A DNA stretch of 64,000 nucleotides from Nostoc sp. PCC 7107 (GTDB taxonomy: Bacteria; Cyanobacteriota; Cyanobacteriia; Cyanobacteriales; Nostocaceae): the NCBI RefSeq assembly GCF_000316625.1, contig NC_019676.1, forward strand, positions 793,001-857,000, read 5' to 3'. Below, piece by piece: positions 32,048-38,661 of this stretch; the first letter of the stretch is position 1; every line of letters begins with the position of its first letter. The notes beneath the pieces were generated by a model that was given only the letters and a program-made list of their open reading frames with translations, ran no database searches and had not been told where the DNA came from. Made by a program: the position numbers and the translations under genes.

Positions 32048-33841
32048 CTAAAATCTAGAATCCAAAATCGTGTGACGCATTGTAGTGCTATCTGGCATTA
32101 CTGGTGACTTGAGTTTTTGTTCTTGTTGTGCTTTTAATTTTTGTTGAGCAATTGTTTGATTAGCTAATGCTAATGCGTTTTTAGGATCAAGTTCTAATGT
32201 AGCCATAAAAGTTTTTACAGCATCTTCTAATTTGCCCAATTTCAATAAGGCAACTCCTTTACCAGCTAAAATATTCGCATCCATTGGAGCCAGAGTACTA
32301 GCTTGGTTGTAAGCATTAATCGCCTCATCATATCTAGCTAAATTAAATAGTACGATGCCTCTGTTGTACCATCCTTGCGATAAATTAGGGTTAATGCCGA
32401 TCGCTTTATCTACAGACACTAAGGCTTCTTGATTGCGAGATAAATGCCATAAGACAACGCTTCGGTTAGCCCAAATATTAGCTAAGAGTGATTTATCTGC
32501 AAATTTGCCCACATTTTCTAATGCTTTATTATATGCTGTGAGTGATGCTGAATAGCGGTCTAAGGTTTTGAGAATTCTGCCTTTATTAAACCATGCTTGA
32601 GCATATTTCGGATTAATTTCGGTGGCGCGATCGCTACTAGCAATTGCATCAGTATATCTGCCTAAATACCATTGGGTAGCTGCACGATTATTCCACGCTT
32701 CTGCATAGTTGGGATTGAGAGCGATCGCTCTTTCGATTGATGCTAATCCTTCTTCGTAATTTCCTAATCCAGCTAAGGCGATTCCTCTCTGTTCCCAAGC
32801 TAAGGCGGGACTGATATCACCCCAGCGGCTATCACCTTGGAGTGCAAGTTCTGCGGCTGCTTGTGCTTCGGAAAATTTACCTATTTTGTTCAAACTAGCA
32901 CTTTGACTAGCTAAGACTAAGGCATAATTAGGACTGAGTTTGATGGCAAATTGGTATGAAACTACGGCTTGTTCTGGTTTGCCGATCGCTGCTAATGATC
33001 TACCATGTTCTAACCAAATATCTGCATCTTTCGGATTCATCGCCACTGCTTGATCAAAGGAGGCGATCGCTTCTTCTAATTGTCCGTTTTTTTTCTGTGC
33101 CAAACCCTTAGTGTACCAAGCAATTGCTGGTGTGGTATCACCCCAATTTTGATTTACTTTAATGGCTGAGTCACAAGCGGCGATCGCTTCGCTCAACCTG
33201 TTTAAATTTGCTAAGGCTTGACAATTACCGACTAACGCTAAAGAATTCTCAGGCGTAATTTCTAAGGCGCGACTAAATGAGGCGATCGCTGCGTCTAGTT
33301 GTCCTAATTTACTTTCTCCTAGACCACGATTGTACCATGCTACCACTGCTGTAGTACTGCCCCAGTTGCCATCAGAACGCAGTGCTAAATCACAGGCAGC
33401 GATCGCTTCGGCATATTTATTTAAACTTAATAATGCTTCACATCTTTGAGCCAAGGCTAAAGAATATTTTGGCTGGAGACGTAAGGTGCGATCAGCTGAT
33501 ACTAACGCTTCACTATACTTGACTTGCTTGAGCAAAATTGCTGTGCGTGTTACCCAAATTTCTATTTCATCGGGTTTAATGGCAATTCCTTGATTACAAG
33601 CGGCGATCGCTTCATCATATTTCTTTTCCTCTGCCAACAACTGACAAAAATTTGCCCAATAGTCAAAGTCTTTAATCTCTAATTTCTCTTGAGCAAATAA
33701 AGTTGTTGGCACTAACGAATTTGCTAATAAAAAAATTGCTGTTAGTCCCCCAACAATACTGCTGGATTTGCCTGATTTTCTCAACCAGTTATTAATAGCT
33801 TGTTTTACTCTTGACTTAGCAGTAGTATGGAAAAATCTCAT
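32048..33841 (-). CDS. exported TPR-repeat protein
   Basis: 597 residues. A basic N-terminus and hydrophobic segment (SSIVGGLTAIFLLANSLVPT, about 27-46, then TTLFAQ) form a signal peptide or anchor. About 13-14 TPR units follow to residue 575. Many contain the pattern AIASFDQAVAMNPKDADIW or NRGIVLFNLARYDEAINAYN, and three units carry an insertion with an NWGDTTPAIAWY-like segment. It lies divergent from the glycosyltransferase-haemagglutinin-CHAT gene across 227 bp, suggesting shared regulation and perhaps partnership at the cell envelope. The TPR array implies a protein-binding scaffold; no enzymatic domain. Confidence 0.85.
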   Translation of the reverse strand: MRFFHTTAKSRVKQAINNWLRKSGKSSSIVGGLTAIFLLANSLVPTTLFAQEKLEIKDFDYWANFCQLLAEEKKYDEAIAACNQGIAIKPDEIEIWVTRTAILLKQVKYSEALVSADRTLRLQPKYSLALAQRCEALLSLNKYAEAIAACDLALRSDGNWGSTTAVVAWYNRGLGESKLGQLDAAIASFSRALEITPENSLALVGNCQALANLNRLSEAIAACDSAIKVNQNWGDTTPAIAWYTKGLAQKKNGQLEEAIASFDQAVAMNPKDADIWLEHGRSLAAIGKPEQAVVSYQFAIKLSPNYALVLASQSASLNKIGKFSEAQAAAELALQGDSRWGDISPALAWEQRGIALAGLGNYEEGLASIERAIALNPNYAEAWNNRAATQWYLGRYTDAIASSDRATEINPKYAQAWFNKGRILKTLDRYSASLTAYNKALENVGKFADKSLLANIWANRSVVLWHLSRNQEALVSVDKAIGINPNLSQGWYNRGIVLFNLARYDEAINAYNQASTLAPMDANILAGKGVALLKLGKLEDAVKTFMATLELDPKNALALANQTIAQQKLKAQQEQKLKSPVMPDSTTMRHTILDSRF

Positions 33842-34068: not shown

Positions 34069-37000
34069 ATGCCGCCAGTAATTTCCTTAATCATCACAGT
34101 TTACAATCGGGAGAATTATCTCAGATTAGCTATAGAAAGTGTTTTATCGCAAACCCGACAAGACTTTGAACTGCTGATTTGGGATGATGGTTCTACAGAT
34201 AATAGCCTAGAAATTGCCCGTGAGTATGAAAAGTGCGATCGCCGTGTGCGGGTAATATCATGCCAAGATAATATTGGAGCAACCAGAGCCTTAAAAGCTG
34301 CGATCGCTCAAACTAGTGGTAGATATATCGGTTGGGTAGATAGTGATGATTTACTAGCACCCACAGCCCTAGCCGAAACAGCCGCAGTTTTAGATGTCAA
34401 ACCCAATATTGGCTGGGTTTACACCGACTATTTAGATATTGACGAAAACAATACAATCCTCAGCTATGGTTATCGTTGTCTCGTACCCTATAGCCGTGAA
34501 GCACTGTTAAATCGGTTTATGACATTTCACTTTCGGCTAATTCGTCGAGAAGTGTTGGATTTAGTGGGAGGAATTGATGAGTCACTTGCAGTGGTAGAAG
34601 ATTACGATTTATGTCTAAGACTTTCTGAAGTTGCAGAAGTAGAGCATATATACAAACCTTTATACTACTATCGCACTCATCCCGAAACTATATCGCGGCA
34701 ACGACAACAAGAACAAATCAAAAACTCCCAACTAGCAATTCTCAAAGCAAGACAACGCAGACAGCATCACAAACCAGACTTACAACACAAAGCCCTCATT
34801 CCTGACAGCAAAATAAATTTTACTGCTATTTCCCAAGCTAAGAAACAAACTTTTCCAAAATCTATCAAAACATTAGCAGTAAGCAACATAGCATTGCTAT
34901 TATGCCTCCTACCCACAACAGCCATAGCCCAGAACATCACCCCCACCAACGATGGTACAGGCACAATTATTAACCACCAAGGCAACAATATTAATATTAG
35001 TGGCGGTAGTCTCAGTAGTGACAAAGCCAATTTGTTTCACAGCTTCAGCAAATTTGGACTTGATGCCAACCAAACAGCCAACTTCTTATCGCAACCATCA
35101 ATTCAAAACATCTTAGGTAGAGTCACAGGTGGCGAAGCATCAATAATTAACGGCTTAATTCGCGTTAGTGGGGGAAATTCCAACTTATATTTAATCAATC
35201 CAGCCGGTATAATCTTTGGTGCTAATTCTAGTTTAAATGTCCCAGCATTATTTACAGCTACCACAGCCACACGCCTCGGTTTTGGTAATAATAACTGGTT
35301 AAATGCGGTTGGAACAAACGACTACAACCAACTTATCGGCACACCTAATAGTTTCGCCTTTGATAGCAGCGTTGCTAGTGCGATATTCAATCAAGGTAAT
35401 TTGGCAGTGCCATCAGGGAATAATTTAAGTTTATTTGGCGGCACAGTAGTAAGTACAGGAACTTTGTCAGCGCCTGGTGGTAACGTCACAATTGCTGCTG
35501 TACCTGGGAGTAGCTTACTCAAATTGAGTATGGCGGGGAATCCTTTGAGCTTAGAAATTCAACCGCTGAATGCAACTAATAATAATTTGCCGGGGAATTC
35601 TTTACCAGCATTGTTGACTGGTGGTGGTGTTAGTAATGTCTCCGGGTTGCAGCTTGAAAATGGTGAGGTGCAGTTAACTGGTTCTGGCTTGAAGATTGAG
35701 AATGGCGATGTTGTGGTAACTCAAGCCAATGGGAAAAACATTACCCTCGCCGCTAACCACAATTTAACGTTGCCAGAAAGTCAACTTTCCGTCACTAACA
35801 ACTTAAATTTACTTGCTAAAGATACCGTGAGAGTTCGTGATAGTGTTGCTAAAAATTTCTCGGCTATTGCTGGCAATAAACTCACTATTCAAGGTAATCA
35901 AGGCATTGATATTTTTGCGATTAATCACTTAGACACAACACCTTTTATCAGCGGTGGTAATTTCACCTTAATTAGTGATGGCAAGATTTCTTTAGACGCG
36001 CACTTTGCCAGCGGTGGTAAATTTTCTATTCTTAACGCTCTAGGAAAAGGTGCTGATTTTATCAGTTTAGTTGACCCAATTGTTAGTTCTACCCAAGATG
36101 TTACCTTTGGCAACTACACTGGCCCATCTTTAAAAGTAGAATCTCTTGGTACTATCACCACTGGCAATATTGTTATTACCAACCAAGATATTGCTCTCGC
36201 TACTTTTTGCAGCACTAATACTTGTACCACAGATGCTCAACTTTTAGCCAGTCAGCCATCTTTGATTTTAAGAGCAGGTTTGAGTAGCTTAATAGAACAG
36301 AATTTTGGTACTGCACCAGTCGGACTCAACACAACCACCGGGCCATCTTTACCAGGCAATGTAGTCACAGGTAACATTTCATTTAGTCTGTATGGTGGGC
36401 CTGTAATTATTAGCGCCACAGGTAATATTACCACTAGTGATATTGATACTTCTAACACTAACGGTGCGATAGGCAACGTAGATTTAACTGCTGGTGGTAA
36501 CATTACCACTGGTAATATTGATACCACTGATTTCGCTCAATCTGGTGATGTAAATTTAACTGCCGGCAGTAGCATTATTACTGGTGACATTGATACTTCT
36601 AGTTTTACTACAGCAGGTTCAGTCATACTCAGAGCAGGTACTAGTGGAACGTTTGGCAGAAATATTACTTTTAATAGTATTAATACACAAGGTACTGATG
36701 ATGACGGTGTTTCTACAGGCGGGAATGTTAACATTTTAGCCTATGGCTTAGTCAGAGGCACAGGTGTTATTTCTGATGGTGAAGGCGGTTTTACTACTGA
36801 TACAATTAACACTACTAGTCTAAATAGTGGTGTTTCAGGCTCAATTACGATTCAACATGATGGTGGGCCAAATAACGTCCCATTTATTGTTGGTAATTCT
36901 GCTACTAATGGTACAGCAGGAAGAATTGTGAGGAATGATACGCCAACAACTGGTACTTCATTTCCGGTTTTACCCAATGGTGGCACAGTTACAGATGCAG

Positions 37001-38661
37001 GTAACAGCGCTAATTTTACTTCCATCAACACGCCACCCACTATCACCGCAAATTCACTGTTTTCTGGTGCAGTCAATCAATCGATAACTTTTACATTTGG
37101 GTCTTTAAATCCCATTACTAGTGATATTAATAACGATAACCTGACTATAATTTTTGATGCCATTTCATCAGGTACTTTAACTTTTCAAGATGGCACACCA
37201 GTTACTGTCGGCAGTGTGCTAACTTCTAGTACAGTATTAGTATATACGCCACCTGCAAATACTAGAGGTGTCATTCCGGCTTTCACAGTTAGATCTAGCG
37301 ATGGCGTTTCTCAGTCAAATCCGCAACAAGTTAATGTAACTGTTGTTTCAGAACCAAATGTTGATGATCCAATCCCTGAAAAACCACCTACAATAGTAGA
37401 TCCACCACCAAAAGTAATCAAAGATCCCTCTTCGCAAATTGATGAAAAATTTACAGATCAGGTGGGAACATACTTAGGAGAAGGTAAACAGCCAATTAAG
37501 GGTATCAAGGAAGCGCAAGAGATTCTCACTAACATTGAATCTTCGACAGGTGCTAAACCTGCCCTAATTTATGTTTCCTTTGTACCTGCAACTATCAAAC
37601 CTACTGCCCAATTACCGATTATTAGTCAAGATAACGACGTTCTGGAATTGGTAGTGGTGACAGCTAAAGGTGAACCAATTCGGCAAGTATTAACAAATGT
37701 GACGCGATCGCAAGTTATTACAGCTAGTCGTCAATTAACCAGTGCAGTAACAGACCCAGCACTACGTCGCACCTATATCAAACCTGCTCAACAACTACAC
37801 AATTGGCTAATTGCACCCATTGAATCTAACCTCAAAGCACGAGAAATCAATAATTTAGTGTTTCTCATGGATACAGGATTACGCGCTATGCCCGTAGCCG
37901 CACTTTATGATGGTCAACAATATTTGGTAGAACGTTATAGCGTTGGTTTAATGCCGAGTCTCAGCCTGACAGACACAAAATATGTCGATATTAAAAAAGC
38001 TAAAGTTTTGGGTATGGGTGCATCTCAATTCATGAATCTAGACCCATTACCAGCAGTCCCCACAGAATTGAAAACCATTGAGCAGCTTTGGCCTGGTAAA
38101 GCCTTCTTAAATGAAGCCTTCACCTTGAAAAATCTCAAAGCGCAACGACAAGACATCCCGTACGGAATTGTTCACCTCGCCACCCACGGCGAATTTAGAA
38201 AAGGTGCGCCCAGTAACTCTTATATTCAATTGTGGGATAGCCAACTAAGAATGGATCAAATGCGCCAACTAGGTTGGAATAACCCATCTGTAGAGCTAGT
38301 TGTACTAAGTGCTTGTCGTACAGCCTTGGGTGATGAAGACGCAGAACTAGGTTTTGCTGGCTTTGCTGTCCAAGCTGGTGCTAAGTCTGCATTGGCGAGT
38401 TTATGGTATGTCTCCGATGAAGGTACATTTAGCTTAATGACCGAGTTTTACGAAAAGTTGAAACAAGCCCCCATTAAAGCCGAAGCCCTCCGCCAAGCAC
38501 AAATAGCCATGCTCAAAGGAGAAGTCCGCCTAGAAAACGGTAAACTAAAAACTTCTCATGGTGATTTATCTCTACCACCTGTCTTGCTAGAACTCGGAGA
38601 CAAAAACCTAACTCATCCCTATTTCTGGTCCGCTTTTACCATGATTGGTAATCCTTGGTAA
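34069..38661 (+). CDS. fusion protein: family 2 glycosyltransferase, haemagglutinin-type secretion domain, CHAT protease
   Basis: 1530 residues in one uninterrupted frame. Residues 1-225 are a GT-A glycosyltransferase (ISLIITVYNRENYLRLAIES, WDDGSTDNS, metal-binding DSDD at 91-94, ED in VEDYDLCLRL). Residues about 267-287 form a signal-like hydrophobic stretch ending AIAQN. Residues about 288-425 are a filamentous-haemagglutinin/TPS domain (NITPTNDGTGTII, FSQPSIQNILGRV-like, YLINPAGIIFGANSSLNVPA). A beta-helical region follows to about 985, then a cadherin/Ig-like segment (about 985-1095), a Pro-rich linker and a CHAT domain (about 1160-1530). The CHAT pair is intact: His1373 in LATHGEF and Cys1416 in VLSACRTALG. 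No ATG, GTG or TTG lies between the two halves before the hydrophobic core, so separate translation is unlikely. The 3' end overlaps the convergent kinase gene by 43 bp. No TpsB-type pore gene is nearby. Confidence 0.85.
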   Translation: MPPVISLIITVYNRENYLRLAIESVLSQTRQDFELLIWDDGSTDNSLEIAREYEKCDRRVRVISCQDNIGATRALKAAIAQTSGRYIGWVDSDDLLAPTALAETAAVLDVKPNIGWVYTDYLDIDENNTILSYGYRCLVPYSREALLNRFMTFHFRLIRREVLDLVGGIDESLAVVEDYDLCLRLSEVAEVEHIYKPLYYYRTHPETISRQRQQEQIKNSQLAILKARQRRQHHKPDLQHKALIPDSKINFTAISQAKKQTFPKSIKTLAVSNIALLLCLLPTTAIAQNITPTNDGTGTIINHQGNNINISGGSLSSDKANLFHSFSKFGLDANQTANFLSQPSIQNILGRVTGGEASIINGLIRVSGGNSNLYLINPAGIIFGANSSLNVPALFTATTATRLGFGNNNWLNAVGTNDYNQLIGTPNSFAFDSSVASAIFNQGNLAVPSGNNLSLFGGTVVSTGTLSAPGGNVTIAAVPGSSLLKLSMAGNPLSLEIQPLNATNNNLPGNSLPALLTGGGVSNVSGLQLENGEVQLTGSGLKIENGDVVVTQANGKNITLAANHNLTLPESQLSVTNNLNLLAKDTVRVRDSVAKNFSAIAGNKLTIQGNQGIDIFAINHLDTTPFISGGNFTLISDGKISLDAHFASGGKFSILNALGKGADFISLVDPIVSSTQDVTFGNYTGPSLKVESLGTITTGNIVITNQDIALATFCSTNTCTTDAQLLASQPSLILRAGLSSLIEQNFGTAPVGLNTTTGPSLPGNVVTGNISFSLYGGPVIISATGNITTSDIDTSNTNGAIGNVDLTAGGNITTGNIDTTDFAQSGDVNLTAGSSIITGDIDTSSFTTAGSVILRAGTSGTFGRNITFNSINTQGTDDDGVSTGGNVNILAYGLVRGTGVISDGEGGFTTDTINTTSLNSGVSGSITIQHDGGPNNVPFIVGNSATNGTAGRIVRNDTPTTGTSFPVLPNGGTVTDAGNSANFTSINTPPTITANSLFSGAVNQSITFTFGSLNPITSDINNDNLTIIFDAISSGTLTFQDGTPVTVGSVLTSSTVLVYTPPANTRGVIPAFTVRSSDGVSQSNPQQVNVTVVSEPNVDDPIPEKPPTIVDPPPKVIKDPSSQIDEKFTDQVGTYLGEGKQPIKGIKEAQEILTNIESSTGAKPALIYVSFVPATIKPTAQLPIISQDNDVLELVVVTAKGEPIRQVLTNVTRSQVITASRQLTSAVTDPALRRTYIKPAQQLHNWLIAPIESNLKAREINNLVFLMDTGLRAMPVAALYDGQQYLVERYSVGLMPSLSLTDTKYVDIKKAKVLGMGASQFMNLDPLPAVPTELKTIEQLWPGKAFLNEAFTLKNLKAQRQDIPYGIVHLATHGEFRKGAPSNSYIQLWDSQLRMDQMRQLGWNNPSVELVVLSACRTALGDEDAELGFAGFAVQAGAKSALASLWYVSDEGTFSLMTEFYEKLKQAPIKAEALRQAQIAMLKGEVRLENGKLKTSHGDLSLPPVLLELGDKNLTHPYFWSAFTMIGNPW

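Follow-up and report, generated by a model that had tools for sequence, protein, structure and literature searches.

In the window, the 64,000-nucleotide stretch of DNA that was analysed, positions 34069–38661 of the forward strand form a single open reading frame (ORF) running from ATG to TAA and coding for 1530 aa, as read from the ORF list and the codons. Its product joins an intact GT2 glycosyltransferase domain to a TPS secretion domain and a CHAT protease domain, with a signal-peptide-like segment between the enzyme and the TPS part (Table 1). GT2 domain, linker, signal-like stretch and TPS domain share one frame in 41 distinct fusions, a set in which one or two rows differ between the motif alignment and the hydropathy and linker scans. 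The preliminary description had placed a GT2 domain, a signal-like stretch at residues 267–287, a TPS domain and an intact CHAT domain in one frame, and this layout was borne out by the Pfam matches, the ORF and the catalytic dyad. Its further claim, that the parts are not divided by a start codon, is correct where the common starts are concerned, as ATG, GTG and TTG are all absent from residue 225 to the hydrophobic core. The end of the gene overlaps that of a convergent response-regulator/histidine-kinase gene by 43 bases (window 38619–38661).

Table 1. Parts of the fusion gene and its divergent neighbour, with positions in the window
Feature	Position	Strand	Details
Divergent TPR protein, companion in the window's clade	32048..33841	-	Signal-like N-terminus judged by eye; TpsB occupies the same place in the second clade
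GT2 glycosyltransferase domain	34069..34764	+	Residues 1–232; Pfam PF00535 Glycos_transf_2 at 6–164, E 3e-31
Linker	34765..34866	+	Residues 233–266; without ATG/GTG/TTG; length differs among orthologues
Internal signal-peptide-like segment	34867..34929	+	Residues 267–287, KTLAVSNIALLLCLLPTTAIA, then Q; hydropathy and motif rules
TPS secretion domain (PF05860)	34936..35538	+	Residues 290–490; Pfam TPS E 7e-40
Passenger middle region	35539..37782	+	Residues 491–1238; repeat-like by eye
CHAT protease domain (PF12770)	37783..38652	+	Residues 1239–1528; Pfam E 7e-74; dyad H1373/C1416

The reading that we favour, tentatively, is that of a TpsA-type exoprotein carrying its own glycosyltransferase as an N-terminal extension, which would act on the passenger in cis. 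One polypeptide would be translated from the ATG at 34069, the GT2 domain would fold in the cytosol, and the internal segment 267–287 would send the remainder through Sec. Signal peptidase would cut after A287 and leave the GT2 domain with a hydrophobic tail on the cytosolic side, while a TpsB transporter would carry the TPS–CHAT passenger to the cell surface. Before or during export, the GT2 domain would glycosylate the passenger to which it is joined, a cis version of the action of HMW1C on HMW1A in trans, and the sugar may stabilise the passenger, help to retain it at the surface or shield it from the CHAT protease. A broader proposal, held more loosely still, is that of a self-glycosylating preprotein with one cleavable enzyme per exported substrate, in which signal peptidase would free a membrane-tailed GT2 and the wider GT2 subfamily would serve giant cyanobacterial surface proteins, fused for TPS passengers and unfused for routes like type I secretion.

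The GT2 domain, its unfused relatives and the passenger

The fused domain is assigned to GT2 by its significant PF00535 match with conserved Asp motifs. Among the 41 aligned fusions, D91, D93, D94, D178, R202 and H204 are invariant and D39 and D40 are kept in at least 90%; we take D39–D40, D91/D93/D94, E177–D178 and R202/H204 to fill the catalytic motif roles. The domain is intact and is a predicted glycosyltransferase. In comparisons with six orthologues, dN/dS was 0.14–0.22 for the GT2 domain, 0.05–0.10 for the TPS domain and 0.29–0.66 for the linker. The AlphaFold pLDDT, taken in 10-residue blocks, was at least 90 up to residue 110 and 72–90 over residues 111–230, but 46 and 35 over residues 131–150. 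Past residue 240, the blocks lay between 29 and 69, which was too low for a structural claim about the TPS part, and such a claim is therefore withheld.

The nearest solved relative of the domain, ranked at the top by both Foldseek and phmmer, was the chondroitin synthase K4CP (2Z86/2Z87), which we take to be a polysaccharide synthase with two GT2 domains and no exported passenger. Identity to K4CP was 34–36% in the Foldseek alignments, and the best phmmer stretch was the second GT2 domain of K4CP. The Pfam class of the fused domain, GT2, is not that of HMW1C-type glycosyltransferases, presumably GT41. GalT1 (5HEA) was considered as an adhesin-glycan enzyme and dropped, as the literature search gave no support.

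The same GT2 subfamily also occurs outside the fusion, where its single-domain members occupy frames of 227–302 aa. An ORF of at least 1200 aa was found within 4 kb of the GT2 gene in 14 of 34 distinct loci (15 of 35 with a duplicate contig) versus 1 of 21 control GT2s (Fisher p 0.004), the controls all coming from the window's genome and ORFs cut by locus ends being counted at their visible length. No giant gene lay within 4 kb in the other 20 of the 34 loci. The sole control with a large ORF was one of two GT2s at L204, with a 1368-aa frame within 4 kb; the second L204 GT2 had none. The count of 35 leaves aside short contigs (L052, L057, L062, L074 and L081), loci that are second copies of a contig (L054, L059, L164 and L167), two composite loci (L080 and L082) and loci whose flank was limited to 1.5 kb. 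In 8 of the 35 scored loci, the GT2 domain is part of a longer protein.

Pfam scans of all 14 large ORFs gave CARDB, Calx-beta, PKD, cadherin, RTX or RHS domains in 11 of them, and the remaining ones have TIG and beta-helix domains (L183), a subtilase domain (L053) or a weak DUF3466 match only (L060); the large ORF of NIES-22 was scanned through the part present in L164. To judge by domain type, these neighbours may well be exported. The most extreme cases were found on plasmids: in Aulosira laxa NIES-50 and Calothrix sp. NIES-4105, the GT2 gene adjoins a gene of more than 10,000 codons, and in Calothrix brevissima NIES-22 it lies one gene away from a gene of that size. An annotated toxin secretion ABC transporter (type I-like) is close by in the NIES-50 and NIES-4105 loci, and a PpiC isomerase gene is also close by in the former. 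Neighbours of a non-adhesin kind were LytR-CpsA-Psr (L056), AAA_31 (L172) and another GT2 (L186), these three being of a polysaccharide type, and DUF6519 (L168). In L080 (8339–16773) and L082 (8159–16854), the GT2 domain belongs to a DUF4915-GNAT-GT2-TPR-GT41 protein, and a cadherin/FG-GAP/RTX gene follows 38 bases past its stop (distance by eye). GT41 is presumably a protein-glycosylating class, and the arrangement is possibly a glycosylated-adhesin operon.

Three stand-alone GT2s of 252–256 aa (L164 8001–8759, L166 12001–12759 and L167 12001–12771) are annotated as 'filamentous hemagglutinin outer membrane protein', a label probably inherited from the fusion. In L071 (9899–11734) and L074 (1112–2341), a subfamily GT2 stands N-terminal to a sulfotransferase domain (PF13469), beside another subfamily GT2.

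The passenger ends in a CHAT protease domain recognised by profile and dyad; all 53 aligned relatives have both the His and the Cys. Residues 501–1100 showed 66–77% identity to six orthologues, with a dN/dS of 0.22–0.28. Composition and sequon counts revealed no acceptor signature for glycosylation in the passenger. Passengers with and without GT2 showed no difference in Ser plus Thr content (p 0.21), and Asn was scarcer in fused (10.7%) than in GT2-less passengers (12.2%; p 4e-5). The motif Asn-X-Ser/Thr stood at chance in fused passengers, with an observed/expected ratio of 1.04 (1.21 in GT2-less ones). Related TPS–CHAT proteins without a GT2 domain make up 19 of the 55 rows of the TPS–CHAT tree, and in three further loci (L141, L142 and L143) the GT2 domain is largely decayed, its remnant still in frame with the signal, TPS and CHAT parts. 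The passenger can thus exist without GT2.

The case for glycosylation in cis is weakened by the missing acceptor signature, by the decay or absence of GT2 in relatives and by the nature of the nearest solved relative; the association with adhesin-like neighbours, though above control, covers under half of the loci. In an alternative with the same topology and cleavage, the GT2 domain would be a membrane-tethered builder of a separate glycan, an exopolysaccharide or a lipid-linked sugar, made one to one with the surface protein. We regard it as unlikely, yet worth serious attention. K4CP and the passenger composition speak for it, as do subfamily members located near other GT2s or polysaccharide-type genes or joined to a sulfotransferase domain. 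Against it stand the unfused members, whose neighbourhoods include giant adhesin-like genes more frequently than those of other GT2s, and the union of GT2 with TPR-GT41 in L080 and L082.

Another explanation is that the main task of the GT2 domain is that of an extended signal peptide region: folded in the cytosol, it would hold back export or cleavage of the signal, and its catalysis would be incidental. Such a role in timing is suggested by the extended signal peptide of FhaB, which slows export and delays cleavage (PMC5422565), and the decayed GT2 retained in frame in L141, L142 and L143 would suit it. The invariance of D91, D93, D94 and D178 in 41 of 41 aligned fusions, the GT2 dN/dS of 0.14–0.22 and the existence of GT2-less relatives make this explanation improbable.

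Internal signal-like segment, candidate transport partner and translation start

Signal peptides are normally found at the start of exported proteins. In the fusion, the segment lies at residues 267–287, behind the GT2 domain and not at the extreme N-terminus expected of a TpsA protein; the TPS domain PF05860 follows directly behind it, as in TpsA proteins (simple hydropathy rules). The NCBIfam model TIGR01901 adhes_NPXG (filamentous-haemagglutinin N-terminal domain) matched residues 323–401. A motif rule places the putative signal peptidase site, AIA/Q, at 287/288. In all 41 fusions, a 12-residue stretch after the GT2 domain exceeded every stretch within it in hydrophobicity, and 40 of the 41 had an AxA-like motif (broad pattern) after the core, the same number having a net positive charge before it. 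Linker hydropathy was above 95% of its own shuffles in only 16 of the 41, and in L107 the strongest hydrophobic stretch lay 197 residues ahead of the TPS domain. Judging from the sequence, the GT2 domain probably stays in the cytosol and the remainder is exported through the internal signal.

The gene neighbourhood was compared between the two main groups of the TPS–CHAT tree, the counts by clade using the rows of that tree. In the second main clade, 15 of 16 fusions (exception L058), all three decayed-GT2 forms and L163 have a divergently transcribed TpsB gene as their next neighbour. Two of these TpsB proteins matched ShlB and POTRA_2 with E values of 4e-31 and 6e-15 (L063) and of 6e-31 and 6e-20 (L158). 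No TpsB neighbour was found at L050, L051, L058, L069 and L070, of which L069 and L070 are outside the tree. In the window's clade, a TPR protein is the divergent neighbour in 15 of 16 cases, the window and the frameshifted L126 included (exception L146), and no such neighbour was found at L046, outside the tree. TpsB is not adjacent to the fusion in this clade, the window gene included; the window's genome has five ShlB matches, four of full length and one partial, among them a protein 61% identical to the L063 TpsB, encoded away from the fusion. A TpsB gene of this genome was matched at G000:C1:4324453–4325403. The same genome also has an array of eight TPS-domain proteins (G000:C1:5511532–5530441; frames of 826–898 aa) with a ShlB match at 5530755. 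The near-constant TpsB neighbour of the second-clade fusions gives the passenger the look of a TPS exoprotein, and the exported passenger of the preliminary description gains support from it.

The hydrophobic segment might instead be an uncleaved signal anchor, in which case the GT2 domain would be cytosolic, the TPS–CHAT part periplasmic and the whole a single inner-membrane protein. Cleavage is itself predicted from sequence motifs, which leaves some room for this possibility, but the AxA-like motif in 40 of 41 fusions, broad as the pattern is, and the TpsB neighbour in the second clade, which implies outer-membrane passage of the passenger, make it very doubtful.

Equally doubtful is the production of two proteins, the passenger being started within the linker, by an unusual start codon or by reinitiation. 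In the interval from the GT2 domain to the hydrophobic core, ATG is absent in 41 of 41 fusions, ATG and GTG in 36 and all three of ATG, GTG and TTG in 19. By contrast, among TPS frames without GT2, ATG precedes the core in 14 of 23 and some start in 21 of 23; with the frameshifted L030 and the unrelated TPS frames L120 and L123 removed, the figures are 12 of 20 and 19 of 20. An internal start is disfavoured by this difference, and the shortest linkers leave just 6–7 residues between the GT2 domain and the hydrophobic core. On the other side, the window gene has a lone TTG (residue 276), within the hydrophobic core, as well as ATT, ATA and ATC codons, and GTG or TTG occurs in 22 of the 41 linkers, in one of them (L025) with a weak Shine–Dalgarno-like match. 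The in-frame GT2 remnants of L141, L142 and L143 are expected if the GT2 start codon is used; L141 and L142 carry later in-frame Met codons, and the retained remnant is therefore no proof of such use.

Selection against Met in the linkers was also considered, given that their 1698 residues include no Met. When a single fusion stood for each cluster (16 rows, 613 codons), the probability of this by chance was 0.005 if Met were as frequent as in GT2 and 0.08 if as frequent as in the passenger, and no claim is made. In L041, L042, L048, L079 and L126, the fusion is immediately followed by a GT2-less TPS–CHAT copy; in the first three of these, the signal of the copy is preceded by GTG or TTG only, with no ATG.

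Distribution and origin of the fusion

Of 145 family genomes searched with residues 1–444, at least 34 have GT2 and TPS in the same frame, a lower bound tallied by hand among the matches listed, with 11 candidates scored per genome. Near-whole matches in one frame, from residue 1–4 to 444, were obtained in 21 of these genomes, and in the other 13 the GT2 and TPS parts matched with an unmatched linker between them. Within the window's genus, seven of eight genomes have the single-frame fusion. The exception, G125 (locus L126, 2986–7648), has one extra A in an A-run at the junction of the GT2 end and the TPS part, with frames open on both sides, which is either a recent mutation or a sequencing slip. 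The preliminary description had taken the fusion to be real and had named orthologues consistently encoded as two genes as the finding that would overturn it; the search in related genomes that it called for found the single frame instead, with the counts given above for genus and family.

Many filamentous cyanobacteria carry the fusion. Among the carriers are Nostoc spongiaeforme, several Nostoc sp., Fortiea, Desmonostoc, Mojavia, Calothrix membranacea and Tolypothrix and, at a greater distance, Phormidium sp. LEGE 05292, one Xenococcaceae genome and UBA11370. In a phylum draw of 386 genomes searched with GT2 alone (E 1e-60, seven candidates scored per genome), 22 matched, fused and unfused forms combined, among them G197 (locus L163), a fusion carrier outside the window's order. 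L047, L067 and L070 have an interrupted passenger or CHAT part, or one divided between frames. Two TPS domains stand behind the GT2 domain in one frame in L069 (9998–20683) and L140 (2239–8469). A sequencing or assembly artefact that lost a stop between two genes, to which only the junction frameshift of the congener G125 lends colour, is scarcely credible and is refuted by conservation, because 41 distinct fusions keep the same frame and so exclude chance, a lost stop or an assembly error.

One clade for all 45 fused GT2s was not rejected in the AU test (p 0.82), the constrained tree surpassing the quick free tree by 18.5 log units, and the result was similar without L051 (44 rows, p 0.785). 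The distances of GT2 and passenger correlate (Mantel r 0.88, a value reached in none of 2000 permutations) among 11 of the 33 fused rows, those with locus ids in both sets. On the TPS–CHAT tree, built by a quick method with the window's own row left out, eight changes are needed among the fused, decayed and GT2-less states. Eighteen of the 19 GT2-less rows fall on the window's side, one of the 19 counted so being the frameshifted locus L126. This tree alone cannot separate GT2 gain from loss because it is unrooted; with that rooting caveat, an old fusion followed by several later losses of GT2 fits best.

Relation to known systems

The TpsB partner, the link of the GT2 subfamily to giant adhesin-like genes and the decayed-GT2 forms are additions to the preliminary description. 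No description of the GT2-TPS-CHAT architecture was found among the papers listed by searches of one open full-text library, which largely lacks subscription journals, and adhesin glycosylation in cyanobacteria is, to our knowledge, little studied. An enzyme domain that is conserved, evolves under purifying selection and precedes a signal would constitute a natural split-compartment preprotein, in which the handling of a folded N-domain by Sec and signal peptidase could be tested directly. If the GT2 domain acts on the passenger fused to it, the wider GT2 subfamily would mark glycosylated giant surface proteins of cyanobacteria.

K4CP resembles the fused enzyme in its GT2 fold and differs as presumably a polysaccharide synthase with two GT2 domains and no exported passenger. 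The GT2-less cyanobacterial TPS–CHAT proteins, such as the one encoded in the window's genome at G000:C1:1430634–1434170 (L124), have TPS and CHAT domains and a similar signal segment and belong to the same tree, but lack the GT2 domain. FhaB/FHA and other extended-signal TpsA proteins share a TPS domain behind a signal peptide with an N-terminal extension; whereas their extension is short and semi-conserved (PMC5422565), here an entire enzyme domain, some 232 residues long, takes its place.

In Haemophilus influenzae, the cytosolic enzyme HMW1C is encoded together with the TPS adhesin HMW1, stabilises it and opposes its release, and the HMW1A/HMW1B/HMW1C system combines a TPS exoprotein, a TpsB of the ShlB/FhaC kind and a co-encoded cytosolic glycosyltransferase (PMC5422565), like the system proposed here. 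In the cyanobacterial fusion, by our analysis, the enzyme is instead a GT2, joined in cis ahead of the signal, the passenger ends in CHAT, and glycosylation is a proposal. If the GT2 domain modifies its own passenger, it would be a cis-acting counterpart of HMW1C.
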